From IMG/VR virus record IMGVR_UViG_3300021964_000666, positions 1 to 21,342 of that record: a stretch of DNA of 21,342 nt, one strand, 5' to 3'. Both the position numbers and the translations under genes were made by a program. The DNA comes from a virus. The notes beneath the pieces were generated by a model. It saw only the letters and a list, made by a program, of their open reading frames with translations, did no database searches and was not told where the DNA came from. Shown here in pieces: positions 1,688 through 21,342 of this stretch (the stretch's first letter is position 1; each line of letters opens with the position of its first letter).

Positions 1688-1845
1688 CACTCACCGTCGT
1701 CTGGTGACGACTCATCCTTCTCTGCGAGCGCGGACTCAAGGTTGCTGATGTATGCCTGTTGCACAGCGATCTCGTACTCGCGTGGGAACCGCTGCTGCAC
1801 GATAGCAAGTACTTGTTCGGCATTGAGGTTGTTCGGGTTGCTCAT
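1687..1845 (-). CDS. Small acidic helical protein of unknown function
   Basis: This 52-residue frame starts at ATG 1845-1843, overlapping the fibre gene's TGA as ATGA, and ends at TGA 1689-1687, which in turn overlaps the next gene. Both junctions are typical of translationally coupled phage genes, so I prefer this frame to the competing one at 1611-1823. The protein begins MSNPNNLNAEQVLAIVQQRF. It is mostly helix-prone (about 8-44, with a regular hydrophobic pattern) and ends in an acidic tail (EKDESSPDDGE). It has no signal sequence, membrane span or known motif. Small helical proteins of this kind often sit between fibre and lysis genes. I cannot name a function. Confidence 0.65.
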   Translation of the reverse strand: MSNPNNLNAEQVLAIVQQRFPREYEIAVQQAYISNLESALAEKDESSPDDGE

Positions 1846-3782
1846 GCTGCTGACTCTAGCGATGCGACACGCTGGCGCAAAGACTTGACTTCGGCGGTTA
1901 GTACAGCGATGAGATCAGGCCATTTCCAACCCGTCGCTTTCAACTGCCCATCCTCCGTCCACTCGTACTGTGCAAGTTTGCCGTCACCAGCAGTCGCCAC
2001 TTCCTCTGCGATGAAACCGTACTGAAGATCAGCCTCGCGCATCTGTCGTTGTGCATCTGTCTCAGATGTCGGGTCAAACTCGTCGTCCTCGTCGTCAGGT
2101 GTTGGCTGATTCGGGATGAACTTCGGAATGAAGGTGACAGGACGCAAGGAGTCGATGAGATCGCCCGACCCGTCAAATGTCGCGACCTGCTCTTTCAGTT
2201 CAATGGTTGATGTGAAGCGGTACAGCGTGCCGAAAGTGTTGTTCCGCAGAACATATTGGTATCCGCTTGTTGTGCTAGTCGCTAGGCTTGCTGTGACGAT
2301 TGTGCCAGAGGCCACAATGCAACCCACGCTGTTGCCCGCTGTAAGCCCTAACTGGTTGGTGGTGTGACGGTAAATACCGACATCTGTGTCGCTTCTAAAC
2401 GATAAAACTGGAGATGCTGCGCTACCAAGATCGTACGCTCTTACGCCGGGATCGGGATGAATCCATCTGTTCATGTAGATTTGTTGATTCGCATGGATAC
2501 GCGACCAACTTGTGTCCGCATAAATCTGAATGTAATCAGCCGTCGTCGTGTCGCCGTAGCAAGTAATAACCCCGTTAGTGTTTGTGTCGATCTGAACTTT
2601 GACTCCGCTGTCACCGTCCTCGTAAAACCTGAAGTACCTATTAGATGTGAACGCCATCGTGGAACCTTCGATCCCGATGTAATACTGGTTGTACAACTGA
2701 ATCTTTGTTTCGACGGCATCAGGGAACGTCATCTTTCCCTGACCAATCGTGATCGAACGCTCAACCCAACCCGAATTATAGTTGCCGTGACCCGAGTCGG
2801 GTGTACGAATCTGGATACCACCCTCCGCTGTCAGGTACACAAACTCGCCTGTCATGCCCGTATGTTTGCCTTGCGATTCTCCAGCACCTAAAACAAGTTG
2901 CTGGCCAGTCCGATCACGAATCTCATTAGTCACAAGATAACCATTGACGGTCACATTGCCTGTGACGGTGCCACCAGCAGTAGGTAAATACGAATGGGTA
3001 TGAACCGCTGTTGCAAACGCAGACGCATGGCTACCATCTACAGTGTCAGCATCTAGCCCGTTACCTGATCCTTCGTCAGAAGTAGTAAGTACACGAGACC
3101 CACTAACTTTTACTCCACCACTATCAGCCTCCAACACAGCCGCACCGTTGTACCAAATCTCAACACCGCTACCACCGTCGTAGATGACGAGGCCGTTCGA
3201 CTGCTGGCTGTTCAAGATGCTGTAGTCACCAGCGCCGACTGTGATGTTGAGCGTGTCATTCGCACCTTTGAGGCGAAGGATGTTGCCGTCTGCGCCTGCA
3301 TCTACATCAAGCGTGTATGTAGGTGTCGTTGTACCGATACCGACATTGCCAGACGAATCAACGCCCATAGCGTTTATGTTCCCATTGCGAAAACCAACAA
3401 AGTTAGCGTCAGGATCGAAAAACACTTGACCTGCACGGCTTGTTCCCCCAGCCTCAGGTGCTCTCAATTCAATCCTAGCGTCCGACCCATTAGTTGTGTG
3501 CTGAAACACAGACGTATTGTCATTCGCTGAGCGAACATCAAGCGTCTGACTAGGTGACGTTGTGCCGATACCGACACGGGAGTTCACATCGTCGTAGTAG
3601 AGCGAAGATGCACCAGCGAACGATCCTCCGTTGTTGTACTGCACCTGTCCGTCCGACCCGGCAGCACCGATCGTCGCGGTGAGTGTCCCACCGACCGTCA
3701 CATTGCCGGTCGTGGTGAGCGTGTCAATCGACAGGTCGTTGAGTTGCGCTGCCGTCAGAACTTGTCGTGCTGTGAACGTCAT
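1842..3782 (-). CDS. Tail fibre/spike with C-terminal S74 self-cleaving chaperone
   Basis: This 646-residue protein is probably the main host-recognition fibre. The N-terminus (QVLTAAQLNDL) resembles that of the neighbouring 180-residue fibre protein and may be the tail anchor. The shaft contains repeated elements: VGIGTTSPSQTLDV (about 70-83) and VGIGTTTPTYTLDV (about 147-160), then LDADTVDGSHAS and HTHSYLPTAGGTVTGN near 243-276, all common in phage fibres. From about 520 the sequence matches the S74 intramolecular chaperone: S525 followed five residues later by K530, then LRPVTFIP, YGFIAEEV and a final coiled-coil helix (LIAVLTAEVKSLRQRVASLE). In this family the chaperone assists trimer folding and cuts itself off, so the mature fibre would be about 524 residues. 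The start overlaps the upstream gene as ATGA. Confidence 0.85.
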   Translation of the reverse strand: MTFTARQVLTAAQLNDLSIDTLTTTGNVTVGGTLTATIGAAGSDGQVQYNNGGSFAGASSLYYDDVNSRVGIGTTSPSQTLDVRSANDNTSVFQHTTNGSDARIELRAPEAGGTSRAGQVFFDPDANFVGFRNGNINAMGVDSSGNVGIGTTTPTYTLDVDAGADGNILRLKGANDTLNITVGAGDYSILNSQQSNGLVIYDGGSGVEIWYNGAAVLEADSGGVKVSGSRVLTTSDEGSGNGLDADTVDGSHASAFATAVHTHSYLPTAGGTVTGNVTVNGYLVTNEIRDRTGQQLVLGAGESQGKHTGMTGEFVYLTAEGGIQIRTPDSGHGNYNSGWVERSITIGQGKMTFPDAVETKIQLYNQYYIGIEGSTMAFTSNRYFRFYEDGDSGVKVQIDTNTNGVITCYGDTTTADYIQIYADTSWSRIHANQQIYMNRWIHPDPGVRAYDLGSAASPVLSFRSDTDVGIYRHTTNQLGLTAGNSVGCIVASGTIVTASLATSTTSGYQYVLRNNTFGTLYRFTSTIELKEQVATFDGSGDLIDSLRPVTFIPKFIPNQPTPDDEDDEFDPTSETDAQRQMREADLQYGFIAEEVATAGDGKLAQYEWTEDGQLKATGWKWPDLIAVLTAEVKSLRQRVASLESAA

Positions 3783-12537: not shown

Positions 12538-12954
12538 TCAGGAAGTGGCTCGCGAAACGTCGCCAGTCACCTGCAACTCAATGCTAACCGGAACCACATC
12601 ACCGACCGGGGGACTCACATCGTATGAGGTGACGATGCACTCACCCGAGTAGATGGGGTTGGTACCCGAGGCGGTGCTTCCAGCGGTGCCGAACTCAAAC
12701 GAGAGTGTGGCCGACTGCCCGAGGACTGCTTGAATGTGAGCGTCCAGAGTTGAATCGAACATACCCGAGAGGGAGACAGTTGAGTCCTTGAGTCCCACGA
12801 TGTAGGTCTTGGAGGACGCACCGAAAGCGGTCGTCTCAGCAGTCTCAACCGACTGCGGGAACGAAACGTCGTTGAGGTAGGCACTGATGTCGGTCAGTGT
12901 CCCACCTGAGTTGTCAAGCGCGAAGTATGCGCCCTTACCGTGAACAAATGCCAT
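12538..12954 (-). CDS. Tail tube protein paralogue, short form
   Basis: This 138-residue protein begins MAFVHGKGAYFALD and is plainly related to the preceding gene. Both carry SVETAETT-x-FG, SK-x-YIVGL-x-D-x-TVSL-x-GMFD and TSYDVS-x-PVGDVV-x-x-S-x-ELQ. It consists of the beta-sandwich tube domain alone and lacks the C-terminal extension of its neighbour. AAGGAG lies five bases before the ATG. It is next to the chaperone pair, the usual place for the major tail protein, so this short form may be the main tube subunit and the longer one a minor or decorated form. The reverse is also possible. Confidence 0.85.
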   Translation of the reverse strand: MAFVHGKGAYFALDNSGGTLTDISAYLNDVSFPQSVETAETTAFGASSKTYIVGLKDSTVSLSGMFDSTLDAHIQAVLGQSATLSFEFGTAGSTASGTNPIYSGECIVTSYDVSPPVGDVVPVSIELQVTGDVSRATS

Positions 12955-12963
12955 GATGACTCC

Positions 12964-13689
12964 TTAGCGTCTGGCGAATGAGAGTATGTATGTGACACCG
13001 CCAGACGAACCGGCGAGGGTGTACTCAGCACGAAGGTATTGGTTGACAGTCGTGCCCGCTGCCACTTCCACCCGCTCAGAGGTGGTCGTACTTGCGCTCA
13101 CCGTGGTGAACGTGGCGAGGTCTGCCCACACCGCATCGTCAGCGGAGTGCTGAACTTTGATGATGGCAGTCCCGTCGTGATCGTTGGCCGTAACGTGGAG
13201 GATTCCCACGCCACCGTTGGCAGTGCTGGCACCGTGATCTTGCGAGGTGCCGTTACCCGTGGCGGTCACTTCCGCGAGAGCCGTCAATGCGATGCCGTTG
13301 TCGATGCCGTCGTCGCCCTGCAACTCAGCGGAGGCAGCAACGACATCCCCGACAGGTGCTGAAACGTCGTATGACGTTGCCTCAACCTTGGCGAGAGAGC
13401 AGCGGTTGCCAGCGGTCGTGCCGTTGTAGAAGACCGTGACCAGCCCGCCATCGTTGGTGCCGAGGACTCCTTGAAGAACCTCATCCACCGCGCCTGCTGA
13501 TCCGTCGAACATGCCGGTGAGCGACACGGTGCCGTCTTGCAGGCCGACGATGTAGTTCTTTGAGTTGTCACCGAACGAGGTCGTCTCTGCTGTCTCCACT
13601 GACCGCGACACACTGGCATCGTTGAAGAACGACGAGAGGTCGGTCTGGTTGAACAGGACGGCGGTGCCCTTACCGTGGATGAACGCCAT
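12964..13689 (-). CDS. Tail tube protein paralogue with C-terminal extension
   Basis: This 241-residue protein (start ATG 13689, one-base TGATG overlap with the gene before, AAGGAG seven bases upstream; GTG 13692 is an alternative) has the tube domain at about 1-125: FIHGKGTAVLF, SVETAETTSFG, YIVGLQDGTVSLTGMFD and ATSYDVSAPVGDVV. A second domain of about 115 residues follows, with HVTANDHDGTAIIKVQHSAD, WADLATFTTV and YLRAEYTL. That looks like an Ig-like or discoidin-like beta-sandwich of the kind displayed on tails and heads of other phages. Such domains decorate the outer tail surface and may bind surface sugars (family knowledge; the specificity is unknown). Confidence 0.85.
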   Translation of the reverse strand: MAFIHGKGTAVLFNQTDLSSFFNDASVSRSVETAETTSFGDNSKNYIVGLQDGTVSLTGMFDGSAGAVDEVLQGVLGTNDGGLVTVFYNGTTAGNRCSLAKVEATSYDVSAPVGDVVAASAELQGDDGIDNGIALTALAEVTATGNGTSQDHGASTANGGVGILHVTANDHDGTAIIKVQHSADDAVWADLATFTTVSASTTTSERVEVAAGTTVNQYLRAEYTLAGSSGGVTYILSFARR

Positions 13690-13901
13690 CACTCAACTCC
13701 TTCATCTTCGATGACTTCTTCGACCCAGTCGAACTCTTCTACATCAGCGACTGGCTCGGGTGCCTTGCCGTCGACTTTTTCGATGATCCCTTGGTCGGTC
13801 AGCCAGCGGATGGACTTCGTGGGGATGTCATCGACAATGTCGCCGGGTTCTGCCCGACGACCCTTGTAATCGATTCCTTGAATGACTCGGTATGTTGCCA
13901 C
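13689..13901 (-). CDS. Small acidic protein before the tail tube genes
   Basis: I chose the GTG at 13901-13899 because GAGGAG stands five bases before it; an in-frame ATG at 13916 lies upstream of that site. The product is 70 residues, beginning VATYRVIQGIDYKGRRAEPG in the reading frame (fMet at the GTG), with DIVDDIPTKSIRWLTDQGIIEKVD and a strongly acidic end (EEFDWVEEVIEDEGVE). The compact DIPTKSIRWLxxQGxIE part resembles small proteins found among phage head-tail genes, for which I know no function. The stop overlaps the tube gene (TGATG), so it is translated with it. Confidence 0.75.
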   Translation of the reverse strand: MATYRVIQGIDYKGRRAEPGDIVDDIPTKSIRWLTDQGIIEKVDGKAPEPVADVEEFDWVEEVIEDEGVE

Positions 13902-16149: not shown

Positions 16150-17109
16150 TCAGGCGACGCAACCGGAGAAGAAGTACCCGAGGTCGGTGGCGATGACCTT
16201 GTAGTCCCACGCCATCTGCGCCTCAATGCGATCCGCACGGAGTTCGGGCATACGGAACCGGCTGATGCCGACGTTCTGACCCATGCCGTCGGACACTCCG
16301 CGCCATGTGAACTGGTAGCCAGCCGACGGGGTCAACAGACCGGGCGACGGGGCGACGTAGTACAGGGCTGCGTTGTTACCGGCGTTGAAGCCGAACGAAT
16401 CGCTGGCACCCTCGGCACCCGAGTTGATGATCGAACGCGAGACGAGCACGCGGTCGACACCGAACAGACGGGCGAGGATACCCTCGGCGGGAACCTCGGA
16501 CGAGGTGTACTTGATCCGATCCACGATGTCGGGATGGTGGCGCAACTGACGGAAAACGTCGTAGCCGAGAACCATCACGTTCGGCATGAAGCCGGTGTTG
16601 CTCAGGATGGCCGACTTGCCAGCCTCCACATCGGTGATGGGGTCAGACGAGGTGTAGTTGCTCCAGACCGTGAAGTCCGAGCCACCCGTCACATCCGTGT
16701 CCCACACGCCGGTCGTGAAGTAGGAGGACATCCACTCAACTTCCTGACGGAGAAGCAGACGCTGCGTCACGAACTGGGTCGCGTCGCGATCGGGGTTCAG
16801 CGGGTTGTCCGCATTCGCCCGAACTTGGTCGTCCACATCTTTGTGGAAGGCGTACACCGAGGTGCTGTAGGTGCTGGTGCTCAGGTTGTAGCCCGAGCCT
16901 GCCGACTCCGTCGCCGGGGCACGCAACTGCGCCTCGTCGCGGAACCAGTCACCCTTGGTGTAGGTGTAATACTTATCGCTCTGCTTCTCAACCGGAACCG
17001 AGGGGAACACCCGGTTGGCGATGAAGGAGCCTTGATCCTGAATGTACGCGACCGAGATGTTGGTCAGGATCGCGTCGACATGTACGTCGTTGGTGGTGGG
17101 CTGGGGCAT
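16150..17109 (-). CDS. Major capsid protein, HK97 fold
   Basis: This 319-residue protein follows a strong AGGAG ribosome site six bases before the ATG. It begins MPQPTTNDVHVDAILTNISV and AYIQDQGSFIANRVFPSVPV, a start typical of capsid proteins of this group. Further on are FHKDVDDQVRANADNPLNP (E-loop to P-domain region), LLRQEVEWMSSYFTTGVWDT (spine helix) and a TGFMPNVMVLGYDVFRQLRH A-domain segment. The last part (RGVSDGMGQNVGISRFRMPE) agrees as well. There is no obvious N-terminal delta domain of HK97 type, which fits a separate scaffold gene upstream. It forms the icosahedral shell. Confidence 0.9.
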   Translation of the reverse strand: MPQPTTNDVHVDAILTNISVAYIQDQGSFIANRVFPSVPVEKQSDKYYTYTKGDWFRDEAQLRAPATESAGSGYNLSTSTYSTSVYAFHKDVDDQVRANADNPLNPDRDATQFVTQRLLLRQEVEWMSSYFTTGVWDTDVTGGSDFTVWSNYTSSDPITDVEAGKSAILSNTGFMPNVMVLGYDVFRQLRHHPDIVDRIKYTSSEVPAEGILARLFGVDRVLVSRSIINSGAEGASDSFGFNAGNNAALYYVAPSPGLLTPSAGYQFTWRGVSDGMGQNVGISRFRMPELRADRIEAQMAWDYKVIATDLGYFFSGCVA

Positions 17110-17125: not shown

Positions 17126-17518
17126 TCAGGCTGCTCGGGCCGGGGTGGCGCAGTTGATGATGGCGGTTCCGATCACGCCCGCAGCACCCGTGGCAGTGAG
17201 CATCTGCCCACCGACATAGTGCGTCGTGTCAGTTCCGATGGTACGGGCATCGGCCTGTCCGTCACCGGAAGGGCCGATGAGGTCGCCTTCGTTGAGCGCA
17301 GCGTCCGAAGACACTTTGCTCACTCCGACGACGACGATCTCTGCCGTCTGCCCAGCGGTCGGGTCGTTCTGGAGAACGCCGACCGGGACATCGGTGAGAG
17401 CAGCGCACACGGCAGCCTTGCCGTCGCTGTCAACCTTGACGAAGTAATACTGCTTCGCGCTCAGGTCGGCTGCTGCCTCCAATGTGATCTTGAGGGGCTG
17501 GGAAGCCTTGTATGCCAT
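17126..17518 (-). CDS. Capsid decoration protein (DUF2190-like)
   Basis: This 130-residue protein begins MAYKASQPLKITLEAAADLS and contains YYFVKVDSDGKAAV, DVPVGVLQNDPTAGQTAEIV, VVGVSKVSSDA and LNEGDLIGPS. That series of short beta strands with a PVGVLQN-x-P-x-x-G motif is the usual pattern of DUF2190 proteins, which sit beside the major capsid gene and stabilise or decorate the shell. It starts two bases after the scaffold stop and is followed 16 bases later by the capsid gene. Confidence 0.82.
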   Translation of the reverse strand: MAYKASQPLKITLEAAADLSAKQYYFVKVDSDGKAAVCAALTDVPVGVLQNDPTAGQTAEIVVVGVSKVSSDAALNEGDLIGPSGDGQADARTIGTDTTHYVGGQMLTATGAAGVIGTAIINCATPARAA

Positions 17519-17520
17519 GA

Positions 17521-18384
17521 TTAGTTACCTCGCAGGTACTCGGTGTAGAGGGTGGGGTTCGACTCAACAGCCTTGGCGACTGCCTGTTCGTGGGTCAGGC
17601 TGGGATTCGACTCAATCAGTCGGGCAGCAGCCTTATTGATCTCGCTGCTCGGCTCGTTGTCGAATGCCGACGACTTGCCAAGTTCAGCGAAGAGGTTGCC
17701 GGTGCTGATGCCCTCGTTGGCAGCAGTCAGAACGGTCATAAGAGCGTCGAAGGTTTCCCCGTCGACTGCGTCCGACACCGACTTGAGCACCTTGCCGAAG
17801 TCTTCGGCCTCGGCGGGGAGAGCGGAGAGTTCCGCAGCCTTGCCGATGAACTCGCGCTCCAAGCGGAAGTCGCGCTCTGCCTTGGCGATGCGCTCGGCAG
17901 CCTCGGCACGCTCCTCGGCAGCCTTGACGATCTCCACGATCGCGGGGTCAGCCGACTTCAAGATGTCTTCGCTGGCCGGTGCTGCCTCGGTGGCAACTGC
18001 CTGCTCCATCTTTTCGATCTGATCGGTGAGTTCGGCATTGGCCGACTCAAGGGCTTCGATGTACTCAAAGACCTCAGACGGCAGGTCGACCACATCGTCG
18101 TCCTTCTTCATCTTCTGGCCATACATCTTGTCCATGTCGTCCTCGTCCTCTTCGTCATCGGACTCGGCATCACCCATGAACTTGCGCTTGAGTTCCTCGG
18201 GCATCTTGTCGCCCTTGGCCTTCTCAACTTCGATCTCTTCGATCTCGTTCTCGTTGGTCATGTGTTCCTGCTCCGTGGTGTCGCTCTTGAACAAGACAAC
18301 CTTGCTCAACTGGTTGGCTGGGCGCGTGACGAGACTGATCTCATCAAACTCCATGTCCGACAAGCGGTTGCCGTTCGTAGCCAT
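17521..18384 (-). CDS. Scaffold-like protein with XkdF-type protease remnant
   Basis: I use the ATG at 18384, giving 287 residues; a TTG at 18423 overlapping the upstream stop would add 13. The start LSDMEFDEISLVTRPANQ, then KVVLFKSD, matches the C-terminal end of XkdF-type head maturation proteases, but the catalytic domain is absent. The rest fits a scaffold: an acidic stretch with DAESDDEEDEDD, then a long coiled coil (about 115-190 from the TTG count) and a C-terminus with helix-turn repeats (INKAAARLIESNPSLTHEQA, AVAKAVESNPTLYTEYLRGN). An internal ATG at 18261 has AGGA upstream and begins just after the protease-like piece, so a shorter product is possible. It would organise capsid assembly and leave or be degraded. 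Confidence 0.8.
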   Translation of the reverse strand: MATNGNRLSDMEFDEISLVTRPANQLSKVVLFKSDTTEQEHMTNENEIEEIEVEKAKGDKMPEELKRKFMGDAESDDEEDEDDMDKMYGQKMKKDDDVVDLPSEVFEYIEALESANAELTDQIEKMEQAVATEAAPASEDILKSADPAIVEIVKAAEERAEAAERIAKAERDFRLEREFIGKAAELSALPAEAEDFGKVLKSVSDAVDGETFDALMTVLTAANEGISTGNLFAELGKSSAFDNEPSSEINKAAARLIESNPSLTHEQAVAKAVESNPTLYTEYLRGN

Positions 18385-18419
18385 TGAGAACGAACGGTAC
18401 TTCCCCCGATTGACCGGCT

Positions 18420-19433
18420 TCAAGAGTTCTTGCGAGATTCTTTGGGGATCGGCTTCATCGCCTTGATCTTCTCAGTGATCTTGTCGATGGCTGCGTCATC
18501 AAGCATCTCGCCGGGGACGAGCATCACGCCGGTATCCCCGTCTGCCTTACCGATGGCTTCGACCATGTCGGCCCGCGCACTTTCTGCATACCCCTCGGCT
18601 CCACTGACATCGTAGGGAACGTAACGCATCTCGCCCTCCTTGTTAGGTGTGCGGTAGTGAGTGGTGAAAGTCGACAGGTCGAAGATGCCAATCTGATCGT
18701 GTGTCCTGCCGAGGTCGGCTGCGCGATCCAGTGTGGGGACGACAACCGATACGTCTAAGAAGATGTAGTCAACTCCATCGACGTTCTCCTTCCACGCGCC
18801 GAGGTGGTGGTTAGGGAGTGCCAACAACTCTGCCTTCTCGTTGGCGTACTTGCGGACATCGTCTGCGGAGAAGTCACTGAGTTTGACCTTCCGCTCGTTC
18901 TCTTTGCCGATTGCGACCGCCACTCCCTTGCTTCGCATCTCGTTGCGCTTCGGGTTGAAAGTGAACCCACCACCGCGAGCCATTGCTGCGAGCGACTTAG
19001 CACTCTTCCCTGTTGCCTCCACGATCCTGCGAACTCGGTTGCCCGTGCCACCACCCGCAGCAGTCTTACGTCGGCCATGAGTTTTCTGGTCGTGAGAAGA
19101 GCCACCGTGTTTCTTCACCTTCTCGTATCGCTCTAGAAGACGGCGACCCTTGGCTGCCAACTTGGCTGCATCGCTACGGTTCTTGGGAACTGGCTCGCCC
19201 CACGCTGCTGCCGAAAGTGCCAGCCGAGTTGGCTCACCCTTGTCATTGGTCATCGGGCCTGACGGGTTGGTGAAGAATCGGGTCAGGAACGATCCCTTGC
19301 GACGCATCTTCTCTGGTGTGTTGGCAGGCCCTTTGACTCCCGGCTTGAGGTTGGCACCCTCTTTGCGCTTGAAGTGGGCACGGCCAGCAGCCGTCAGTCC
19401 ACCTTTAGGGTCTTTGATCGGTTCCTTGGCCAT
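18420..19433 (-). CDS. DUF6321-type protein with tag and C-terminal unknown domain
   Basis: This protein of 337 residues starts at ATG 19433 (TGATG overlap, AAGGAG five bases upstream; GTG 19436 is an alternative). Residues about 8-105 match DUF6321 as I recall it: DPKGGLTAAGRAHFKRKEG, NLKPGVKG, MRRKGSFLTRFF, RLALSAAAWGEPVPK and a Lys/Arg-rich helix. Then comes HDQKTHGRRK at about 114-123, a Gly-rich linker, and a domain at about 154-262 with a RSKGVAVAIG strand, an ELLALPNHHLGAWKE segment, YIFLDVSVVVPTLDRAADLG and HDQIGIFDLSTF. From memory the latter pattern recurs in phage head and MuF-type proteins without a known activity. DUF6321 function is also unknown. It lies in the head region, so it is probably virion-associated or an assembly factor. 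Confidence 0.75.
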   Translation of the reverse strand: MAKEPIKDPKGGLTAAGRAHFKRKEGANLKPGVKGPANTPEKMRRKGSFLTRFFTNPSGPMTNDKGEPTRLALSAAAWGEPVPKNRSDAAKLAAKGRRLLERYEKVKKHGGSSHDQKTHGRRKTAAGGGTGNRVRRIVEATGKSAKSLAAMARGGGFTFNPKRNEMRSKGVAVAIGKENERKVKLSDFSADDVRKYANEKAELLALPNHHLGAWKENVDGVDYIFLDVSVVVPTLDRAADLGRTHDQIGIFDLSTFTTHYRTPNKEGEMRYVPYDVSGAEGYAESARADMVEAIGKADGDTGVMLVPGEMLDDAAIDKITEKIKAMKPIPKESRKNS

Positions 19434-21337
19434 CACAACTCCTTGATGTATTTAGGCGGGATGTCTTGGCTCAAGACAACTGTTCGGCCATCAGTGCCAT
19501 CCCACCCAGTGCTTTCGTAATAGTCGTAGTCACCGAAGTCATAAGCAATCCCTTGGCGTGCCTCAGACTCTGTGAACTTCGGCTCTCTTCCCAAGTCTTC
19601 TAGCGTGATGACACCATCAGCGATCATCTGTGGTAGGTCGACCTCAAACACAGAGCCTTGGCCTGCGTCAGAGTACGAATCTGTGATTGAGAGTTCGGGT
19701 GTCAAGTAGACCGCAGAACCAACACTGGCGTTGCTTATTCCCCTAGTCTCTCTGCCAGCAGTCAGCCCATCCTGTCTAATCGACTCGGCATTTTTTGCGC
19801 TAGTGCCGTGATAGACGATTGACCGTGCCGAATCTTCTTGCCACTGACGCTCTACTTCACGCTCCATGTCTGAAGTGTCGACATCATCTAACATCTCGTA
19901 CGCGCTCTTGTACGTTCGTTCGACAGTGACTTGGCCATCACTTTCACTCAGTGTGAGATAGCCACCGTCAGGTTCTCTAGCAACGATGTGACCATCAGAA
20001 GATTCGTAGCCACTACCAGTAATCAACTCGTAGTGACTCACTACATCATCAATAGACGCTTTGACTGTGGCTCCACCTTCTAAGTCGTAAATGTCGGATG
20101 GCCATGTTCTTTGGCGAATGTGCTTCAACTCTTCTGACGAGGCTTGGTACTTATCCCAGTCAATCCCCGGTAACGCCCCCTGCTTCCTACGGCCATGCGT
20201 CTTTTGGTCATGCTCCGCGTGCTTGCGTAGTGCGTCCTGCATCTTCTTCTTCTTGTATCCCAACCGCTTGCGCTTGACACCCATCGCGGTAGCGGTATGC
20301 ACCGAGTTCACAGTGGGGCTGTCCTTCTTGACCTTCTTACCCTTGGCCAACGTCTTGATCCAGTCTGAGTTGTTGCCTTCATTGAGAATCGAGCCGATGC
20401 TCGCCTTCGGGCGGTCTTCCTTACCAACGCCCCCGCTATTTGTCGGTGCAACCAGCAAGTCTTTTGAGGGCGTAACAAAGTCTTCGATGTCCATTGCGCT
20501 AGTTTGCCAAGGCTTCCCGCTGTCACCCACAAAGACAATGGCATCGTAGTTACCCGAAAGAAGGACAACTTCACTCTCAGCGGGAGAACCCAGCCCAGTC
20601 TGCGGAGTTGAGAAGATCAACTCCACTGGCACGACCGCCGTCATTACGACTGGCTCGGCACCAAGTTCGGAAGAGCCATAATCCTTGGCAAACTCAATGG
20701 CTTTCCATGTATCGGCAGTCCAAGAACTCAGTGGGCGTTCGTCAATGTCGCTCAATAGCCCTACAGTTCGCCCAAGGTTCTGGCTGCGACCCCAGTTTAT
20801 CTTCAAGGCTTCCTTGAAACTGGGTCTGTTTTGCTTGGTGATCGTCATTCCTCTTGAAACCGTAACGTGCGTAACACCGGCCTCCTTGAACTTCTGCTGA
20901 GTGGCTTCGTACTGCGCCTTGACGACCGCCTCTACGAACTCAATCGCTTTGGGGAATCGCTCACGCATCTGGTCATATGCCATAGCCGAGTCGCCACCGC
21001 TTATGTTCTCTTGCAGGTAGATGTCACGGTCATTGGTGAACTCTGTTTCGTAGTTGTGAAAGTTCACTCCGTCATAGTTATCAATGACACCAAGGCTGTG
21101 CAATGTAGCAAGGTGCAGCAACATGCTGTAACGGTCAGAGGAAGATTTTGCCCAAGCCTTGAGCACACCGGAAGCAAGTGTTTCAGCGTTGAAGTGATCC
21201 TTTGGCCCATCAAGGGGAGTCGCTCGCCCTCCCAGTGCTAGGGGCGGGTAGATCACTTGATTCTCCTGCACTAAGTCTTGTAACTCCAGCGCGATCTTGT
21301 GTGCCTTCTCGGGCGTGTCGGCAACTCCAAACTCCAT
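19433..21337 (-). CDS. Two-domain ADP-ribosyltransferase-like virion protein, possibly 5' incomplete
   Basis: The frame has an ATG at 21337 but stays open to the right edge, so the real start may lie outside; 634 residues are visible. Domain one (about 85-270) has the R-S-E pattern of arginine-type ADP-ribosyltransferases: VTVSRGM with R162, PLSSWTADTWKAIEFA with S204/S205, and a closing SPAESEVVLLSG with E254-S-E256. A basic linker follows, then HDQKTHGRRK at 376-385. Domain two (about 505-634) has VYHGTSAKNAESIRQDGL (H510), SAVYLTP (Y544) and a final VVLSQDIPPKYI, resembling the H-Y class of ADP-ribosyl or phosphotransferase folds. Enzymes of the first class modify host proteins, and some phages inject them with DNA (T4 Alt). 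Position before the head genes suggests packaging in the capsid. Activity and targets are inferred. Confidence 0.8.
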   Translation of the reverse strand: MEFGVADTPEKAHKIALELQDLVQENQVIYPPLALGGRATPLDGPKDHFNAETLASGVLKAWAKSSSDRYSMLLHLATLHSLGVIDNYDGVNFHNYETEFTNDRDIYLQENISGGDSAMAYDQMRERFPKAIEFVEAVVKAQYEATQQKFKEAGVTHVTVSRGMTITKQNRPSFKEALKINWGRSQNLGRTVGLLSDIDERPLSSWTADTWKAIEFAKDYGSSELGAEPVVMTAVVPVELIFSTPQTGLGSPAESEVVLLSGNYDAIVFVGDSGKPWQTSAMDIEDFVTPSKDLLVAPTNSGGVGKEDRPKASIGSILNEGNNSDWIKTLAKGKKVKKDSPTVNSVHTATAMGVKRKRLGYKKKKMQDALRKHAEHDQKTHGRRKQGALPGIDWDKYQASSEELKHIRQRTWPSDIYDLEGGATVKASIDDVVSHYELITGSGYESSDGHIVAREPDGGYLTLSESDGQVTVERTYKSAYEMLDDVDTSDMEREVERQWQEDSARSIVYHGTSAKNAESIRQDGLTAGRETRGISNASVGSAVYLTPELSITDSYSDAGQGSVFEVDLPQMIADGVITLEDLGREPKFTESEARQGIAYDFGDYDYYESTGWDGTDGRTVVLSQDIPPKYIKEL

Positions 21338-21342
21338 GATTG

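Follow-up and report, generated by a model that had tools for sequence, protein, structure and literature searches.

A short peptide, HDQKTHGRRK, occurs twice in a 21,342-nucleotide stretch of viral DNA (IMG/VR virus record IMGVR_UViG_3300021964_000666, here called the window), in two proteins encoded beside the phage head genes. This tag is probably a modular signal for the sorting and/or processing of effectors packaged in the phage head, similar to the capsid targeting sequence (CTS) of phage T4; packaging and cleavage are predicted from sequence and gene position. The tag, the conservation of its peptide, its genomic position, the shuffling of protein modules at tags, and a head protease gene nearby are seen in the sequence.

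Tag copies, motif anatomy, and spread

Both copies lie on the minus strand. The first (20183..20212, preceded by LRKHAE) is located between two ADP-ribosyltransferase (ART) domains, and the second (19065..19094, preceded by VKKHGGSS) lies between a DUF6321 domain and a C-terminal domain. The first-pass annotation had noted the first copy at 20186-20215, which is 3 bases off, and the second at about 19064-19100; its list of six codon differences in ten between the copies was matched exactly, and its view that the tag separates front from C-terminal domains was borne out. When the window was dinucleotide-shuffled 100 times, the pattern H-[DN]-Q-x-[ST]-H-G was matched 0 times.

Across unique contexts, the motif covers approximately 17 residues, hydrophobic-x-[K/E]-H-x2/4-H-D-Q-[KSAR]-[TS]-H-G-[NSR]-W-A-x-G, with the window's group ending in -R-R-K-T. 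In a profile search, D-Q and the last H of the tag were unchanged, T/S could be replaced by A, E, D, or K, the last G by A or S, and the first H by D, E, or G; the idea of a metal site formed by three histidines was dropped because of this last replacement. The residue at position -2 from KH is hydrophobic in 96-97% of tags, whether N-terminal or internal. KH and HDQ are separated by 2 or 4 residues, by 5 in two cases, and never by 3, and this near-fixed spacing suggests a fixed geometry of binding.

The first-pass annotation had mentioned similar strings in other phage head proteins, and the motif indeed recurs in many head-region proteins of other phages; it was found hundreds of times in IMG/VR, with up to 19 copies per record. 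A DNA pattern for HDQKTHG hit more than 119 IMG/VR stretches among the matches listed, many with 2-7 copies, and a variant pattern, HDQ[S..][ST]HG[NS]WA, reached up to 9 copies in one locus among the matches listed. A very rough estimate from one fixed-codon pattern with 15 matches is about 1,000 HDQKTHG copies in IMG/VR. As a control, the reversed peptide matched 21 stretches in a complete IMG/VR scan, every one of them single. In all 42 longer records, the tags (1-19 per record) share one strand; the pattern matched 314 times there and its reversed form once. Cellular genomes totalling 257 Gb gave 88 single matches versus approximately 60 expected from the information content of the pattern, and only one of the 88, on an Actinobacteria metagenome-assembled genome contig (L188), has the KHGT-HDQKTHG-NWA context. 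The tag is thus effectively absent from cellular genomes. This near-chance rate in cells would fit a string that arose by chance, or a feature inside one common domain. Such an explanation is hardly credible, as multi-copy arrays on one strand are found only in phages, the flanking domains are unrelated, and the reversed control gave only singles. The motif is widespread in viruses and its copies lie in low-confidence stretches of both modelled proteins, contrary to two concerns of the first-pass annotation, namely that it might be absent elsewhere or sit inside folded domains.

A tblastn search of 50,697 phage records with a 29-amino-acid consensus gave no match. Pattern searches of the whole genomes of Arthrobacter phages Ottawa and Kovu, Microbacterium phage ValentiniPuff, and Roseobacter phage RDJL, which have related major capsid proteins (MCPs), and of the metagenomic phage record MW202455 revealed no tag. 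No tag was found in the proteins or region examined of the isolates Sonali, Mufasa8, and Polewnik, which have portal relatives, or of S-CBP42 and the freshwater Actinomycetia phage DSL-LC01. Judging by their relatives, the tagged phages may infect actinobacteria, although this is a guess. The motif strings were absent from the literature searched, a set without most subscription journals.

Effector modules and their exchange at tags

The first tagged protein of the window (19433..21340, minus strand) is the 3' part of an effector polyprotein. It had been taken as a whole protein of 634 residues; its reading frame is in fact open at the contig end, and the 5' end is lost there. The whole gene (L314:10261-13533) is present in a sister contig (G017, seen in part as L058 and whole as L314), which overlaps the window by 12,118 bp at 99.98% identity and carries eight tags with differing codons. 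The full protein has approximately 1,091 amino acids and three tags, in the order leader-TAG-GNAT-TAG-ART-TAG-PARP. In the window, its front module is an R-S-E type ART (20513..20953, minus strand), which is recognized by the residue pattern RG, SSW, ExE and not by a Pfam hit; the R, S-S-W, and E-x-E lie at (nearly) invariant columns of 13 aligned sequences. The module behind the tag is a PARP-like ART (19661..19867, minus strand; PF00644, E=1.4e-6, above the cut-off).

The second tagged protein (18420..19436, minus strand; 338 amino acids) consists of a DUF6321 front domain (19200..19415, minus strand; PF19846, E=4.5e-30), the tag, and a cargo domain (18666..18980, minus strand). Relatives of the cargo domain are a region of the "internal virion protein" from cyanophages S-CBP42 and P60 and modules that follow tags in many other arrays. 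In three relatives (L315, L052, L089), the PARP module is missing and a single open reading frame (ORF) leads from the ART module straight into DUF6321-TAG, and in another (L062), an inserted stretch that carries a tag of its own separates DUF6321-TAG from the C-terminal module. An AlphaFold2 model of the 338-amino-acid protein (mean predicted local distance difference test score, pLDDT, 58.9) places the tag in a low-confidence linker (pLDDT 22-30) that joins two better predicted domains, a helical one in front and an alpha/beta one behind; a fold search with the model and its cargo domain gave no significant PDB match. The 634-amino-acid model is weak (pLDDT 47.7) and was used only for the point that its tag lies outside the confident part.

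A first set of 228 unique tagged ORFs contained 149 with one tag and 79 with 2-5. Complete ORFs mostly have 18-70 residues, the tag, and a module of about 120-260 residues, and each further tag opens another module. Pfam families matched by the modules include ADPrib_exo_Tox, PARP, ART-PolyVal, zeta toxin, GNAT, and ddrB-ParB, which are of types common in proteins that phages are thought to inject. DUF3626 and cytidylyltransferase-like modules also occur, and DRAT scored just under the cut-off. The tag had been proposed as a marker of packaged cargo. As a marker of effector modules it stands on sequence evidence, while the packaging part is a prediction.

The domains ahead of tags include MuF, portal (in the G027 lineage), DUF6321, and DUF5872. 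A MuF domain is carried by a few tagged proteins (L004, L032), and by neither window protein nor most tagged ORFs. In one locus (L327:2217-5726), the tag starts at residue 642 of a portal protein (PF04860) that is extended C-terminally by about 520 amino acids, so a different head lineage carries the tag too.

These architectures bear on the idea that the tag serves targeting only, as a docking peptide into the procapsid that is never cut, in the manner of the T4 CTS or encapsulin cargo peptides. Such a role would suit the long constrained motif, with its hydrophobic, His, and Trp positions and a KH-HDQ gap of mostly 2 or 4, and the usual place of the tag near the N-terminus behind a short leader. 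However, one signal per chain would be enough, whereas polyproteins keep a separate tag before each of their 2-5 modules, and the tag also persists on modules joined to MuF or portal, proteins that are located in the head in any case. Targeting without cutting is therefore considered somewhat unlikely.

The exchange of modules is centered on the tag. When tagged proteins of different loci were compared and block ends internal to both proteins were counted as breakpoints, 61% of 641 homology-block ends lay within 20 amino acids of a tag, compared with 12.6% for random points. This clustering would be expected if the tag were a DNA recombination site for module swaps whose peptide had no function of its own. 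The codons argue otherwise, since residues are kept and bases are not: same-codon use between tags of one locus was 0.567 versus 0.499 expected from codon usage, and 0.511 between loci, in line with the six differences in ten in the window. A mere recombination site is accordingly very improbable. Because codon choice is near independent, the tag copies are not, as a rule, recent DNA duplicates and the peptide is what has been kept, as the first-pass annotation had supposed from the two window copies. The flanking class of the tag is more uniform within a locus than chance would give (0.930 versus 0.764; no permutation exceeded 0.810), which fits a genome-specific partner; shared ancestry may be an alternative source of this uniformity.

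Head gene context and proposed function

Tags lie among head genes. In the 42 longer records, MuF was found in 36 and the MCP family phrog_1005 in 33. In the 12 records with MuF, MCP, and tags all listed (two of them read as circular), the MuF-MCP interval contains 114 of the 115 listed tags. In G021, portal comes first, followed by MuF, an array of 17 tags over 15 kb, an XkdF-like protease, a ferritin-like protein, a scaffold-like protein, cement, and MCP. At its upper extent, the tag array has about 19 tags and occupies roughly a quarter of a 60-kb genome. The window shows just the downstream end of an array, adjoining the scaffold-like protein, cement, and MCP. A ferritin/Dps-like protein is also encoded in the head gene block of other tagged phages (L316:6007-6501; L328:5837-8230), in L328 as a fusion with a zeta-toxin domain.

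A gene for an XkdF-type (S78_2) head maturation protease was found near tags in 32 of 43 records, and beside the array in 26 of the 29 records in which MuF and MCP are both present. Of the three exceptions, two are truncated at a contig end, and the third, G034, has another protease family. The HK97-type prohead protease (Peptidase_S78) was found in none of the 42 records. This neighborhood, together with one tag ahead of nearly every module and a modelled position of the tag in a disordered linker, would agree with a role in processing only, in which a cleavage or self-cleavage site frees the modules and packaging depends on something else, such as MuF or the leader. Against it, many single-module proteins have only 18-50 amino acids before the tag, where a cut would amount to leader removal. 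The protease is also present in untagged phages of Arthrobacter, Microbacterium, and Roseobacter, and its usual substrates, scaffold and MCP, have no tag. Processing without targeting is thus judged unlikely.

A combination of docking and cutting, as in the T4 CTS, is favored with moderate confidence. Docking is favored because of the length and pattern of the motif, and cutting because a tag is kept for each module even in chains joined to head proteins and because of the protease beside the array. In the proposed mechanism, the tag signals where each effector module begins in an array between the MuF and MCP genes. A head component would recognize the tag, together with its short leader, and the tagged protein would enter the procapsid. 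During head maturation, the polypeptides would be cut at or near tags, freeing ART, kinase, acetyltransferase, and DNA-binding modules, which would be ejected along with the DNA to act on the newly infected host. The tag would also serve as a standard connector at which modules are gained, lost, and reordered. Packaging in the head and ejection are inferred because unrelated enzymes of the head block share the tag, some are fused to MuF or portal, and others are relatives of internal virion proteins; the receptor, the cutting, and the effector targets are likewise predicted. A full "cargo code" of the head, in which a docking-and-release peptide loads swappable effectors that are each cut free before or during ejection, is proposed tentatively.

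Several observations weigh against this combined role. The lone tag outside the MuF-MCP interval (G021:41107-41126) lies far from the head genes, in a 172-amino-acid ORF with a coiled-coil-like leader. No tag was found in the scaffold-like protein, cement, MCP, portal, MuF, or XkdF of G021; in the sister contig of the window, the scaffold-like protein and the MCP were likewise free of it. A protease site common to the core head proteins is therefore unsupported and cutting by XkdF is uncertain, and the same untagged core proteins would agree with targeting only. The same MCP and XkdF occur in the isolated relatives Ottawa, Kovu, ValentiniPuff, and RDJL, none of which carries the tag. An element of about 17 residues with a Trp exceeds the length of a typical prohead protease site, so that docking fits better than cutting. 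To our knowledge, there is no virion proteomics for any tagged phage. In the Arthrobacter phages Ottawa (L321) and Kovu (L322), the same interval holds other genes, among them those for a VRR-Nuc nuclease, a ribonuclease, and endonuclease VII.

Related systems and neighboring genes of the window

The internal proteins of T4 and its Alt protein carry a CTS that is cut by gp21 (PMC3012670, PMC7411985). In both systems, diverse host-targeting proteins, including an ART, have only a short signal in common, the genes or products are located with the head, and a prohead protease is present. Here, one short peptide is common to otherwise unrelated modules, whose location inside the virion is predicted. 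The T4 CTS is a sequence of about 10-20 residues, N-terminal and one per protein (PMC3012670, PMC7411985), whereas the phage tag is unrelated in sequence, is also found internally after MuF, portal, and DUF6321, and reaches 5 per protein (2-5 in 79 of the 228 ORFs) and 19 per record. In giant phage SPN3US, ejected head proteins similarly have N-terminal propeptides cut at a common motif (PMC7411985); these propeptides are long, their cutting is proven, and their cut motif is similar to the T4 gp21 motif, whereas cutting at the tag is predicted.

Polyvalent proteins (Iyer et al. 2017, PMC5512222) are likewise multidomain phage proteins with ART, GNAT, zeta toxin, ddrB-ParB, and MuF domains, and their release is ascribed to embedded peptidase domains (PMC5512222). 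Tagged polypeptides also join several unrelated effector domains, as in GNAT-ART-PARP of L314, and match ART-PolyVal and ddrB-ParB. MuF polymorphic toxins (Jamet et al. 2017, PMC5576092) resemble them in that a MuF head domain is followed by exchangeable toxin domains, and differ in that MuF is missing from most tagged proteins. Polyvalent proteins and MuF toxins thus contain the same domain kinds as the tagged modules (PMC5512222, PMC5576092, PMC9503650), and text searches of these three papers (PMC5512222, PMC5576092, PMC9503650) did not find a shared tag. Gene position and the MuF and portal fusions suggest that tagged proteins are carried in the virion and injected. The domains are of known kinds; the tag and the logic of the array appear new.

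Encapsulin cargo-loading peptides are short, conserved, and usually C-terminal, and bring enzymes into a shell of the HK97 fold. They differ from the tag in sequence, and the encapsulin shell is not a phage head, whereas the MCPs here belong to the phage family phrog_1005.

If the proposed role is correct, the tag would be a search key, and the proteins behind it, including modules without a known domain, would be predicted as head-packaged effectors. It would be a second, unrelated cargo signal of the T4 kind, used here as a modular connector within polyproteins. It would account for the reshuffling of ARTs, kinases, and other early-infection enzymes with delivery kept, and might make it possible to load harmless proteins of choice into phage heads.

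The remaining head genes of the window also lie on the minus strand, and comprise the scaffold-like head protein (17521..18423; phrog_13547), the cement/decoration protein (17126..17518; PF09956, phrog_673), and the MCP (16150..17109; phrog_1005), which forms the downstream border of the tag array; the scaffold-like protein and the MCP have no tag. Two adjacent related major-tail-like proteins are encoded at 12538-12954 and 12964-13692, the longer one with an extra C-terminal domain. A long tail protein (1842-3782) has a C-terminal end that, by sequence reading only, resembles an S74-type self-cleaving chaperone domain.
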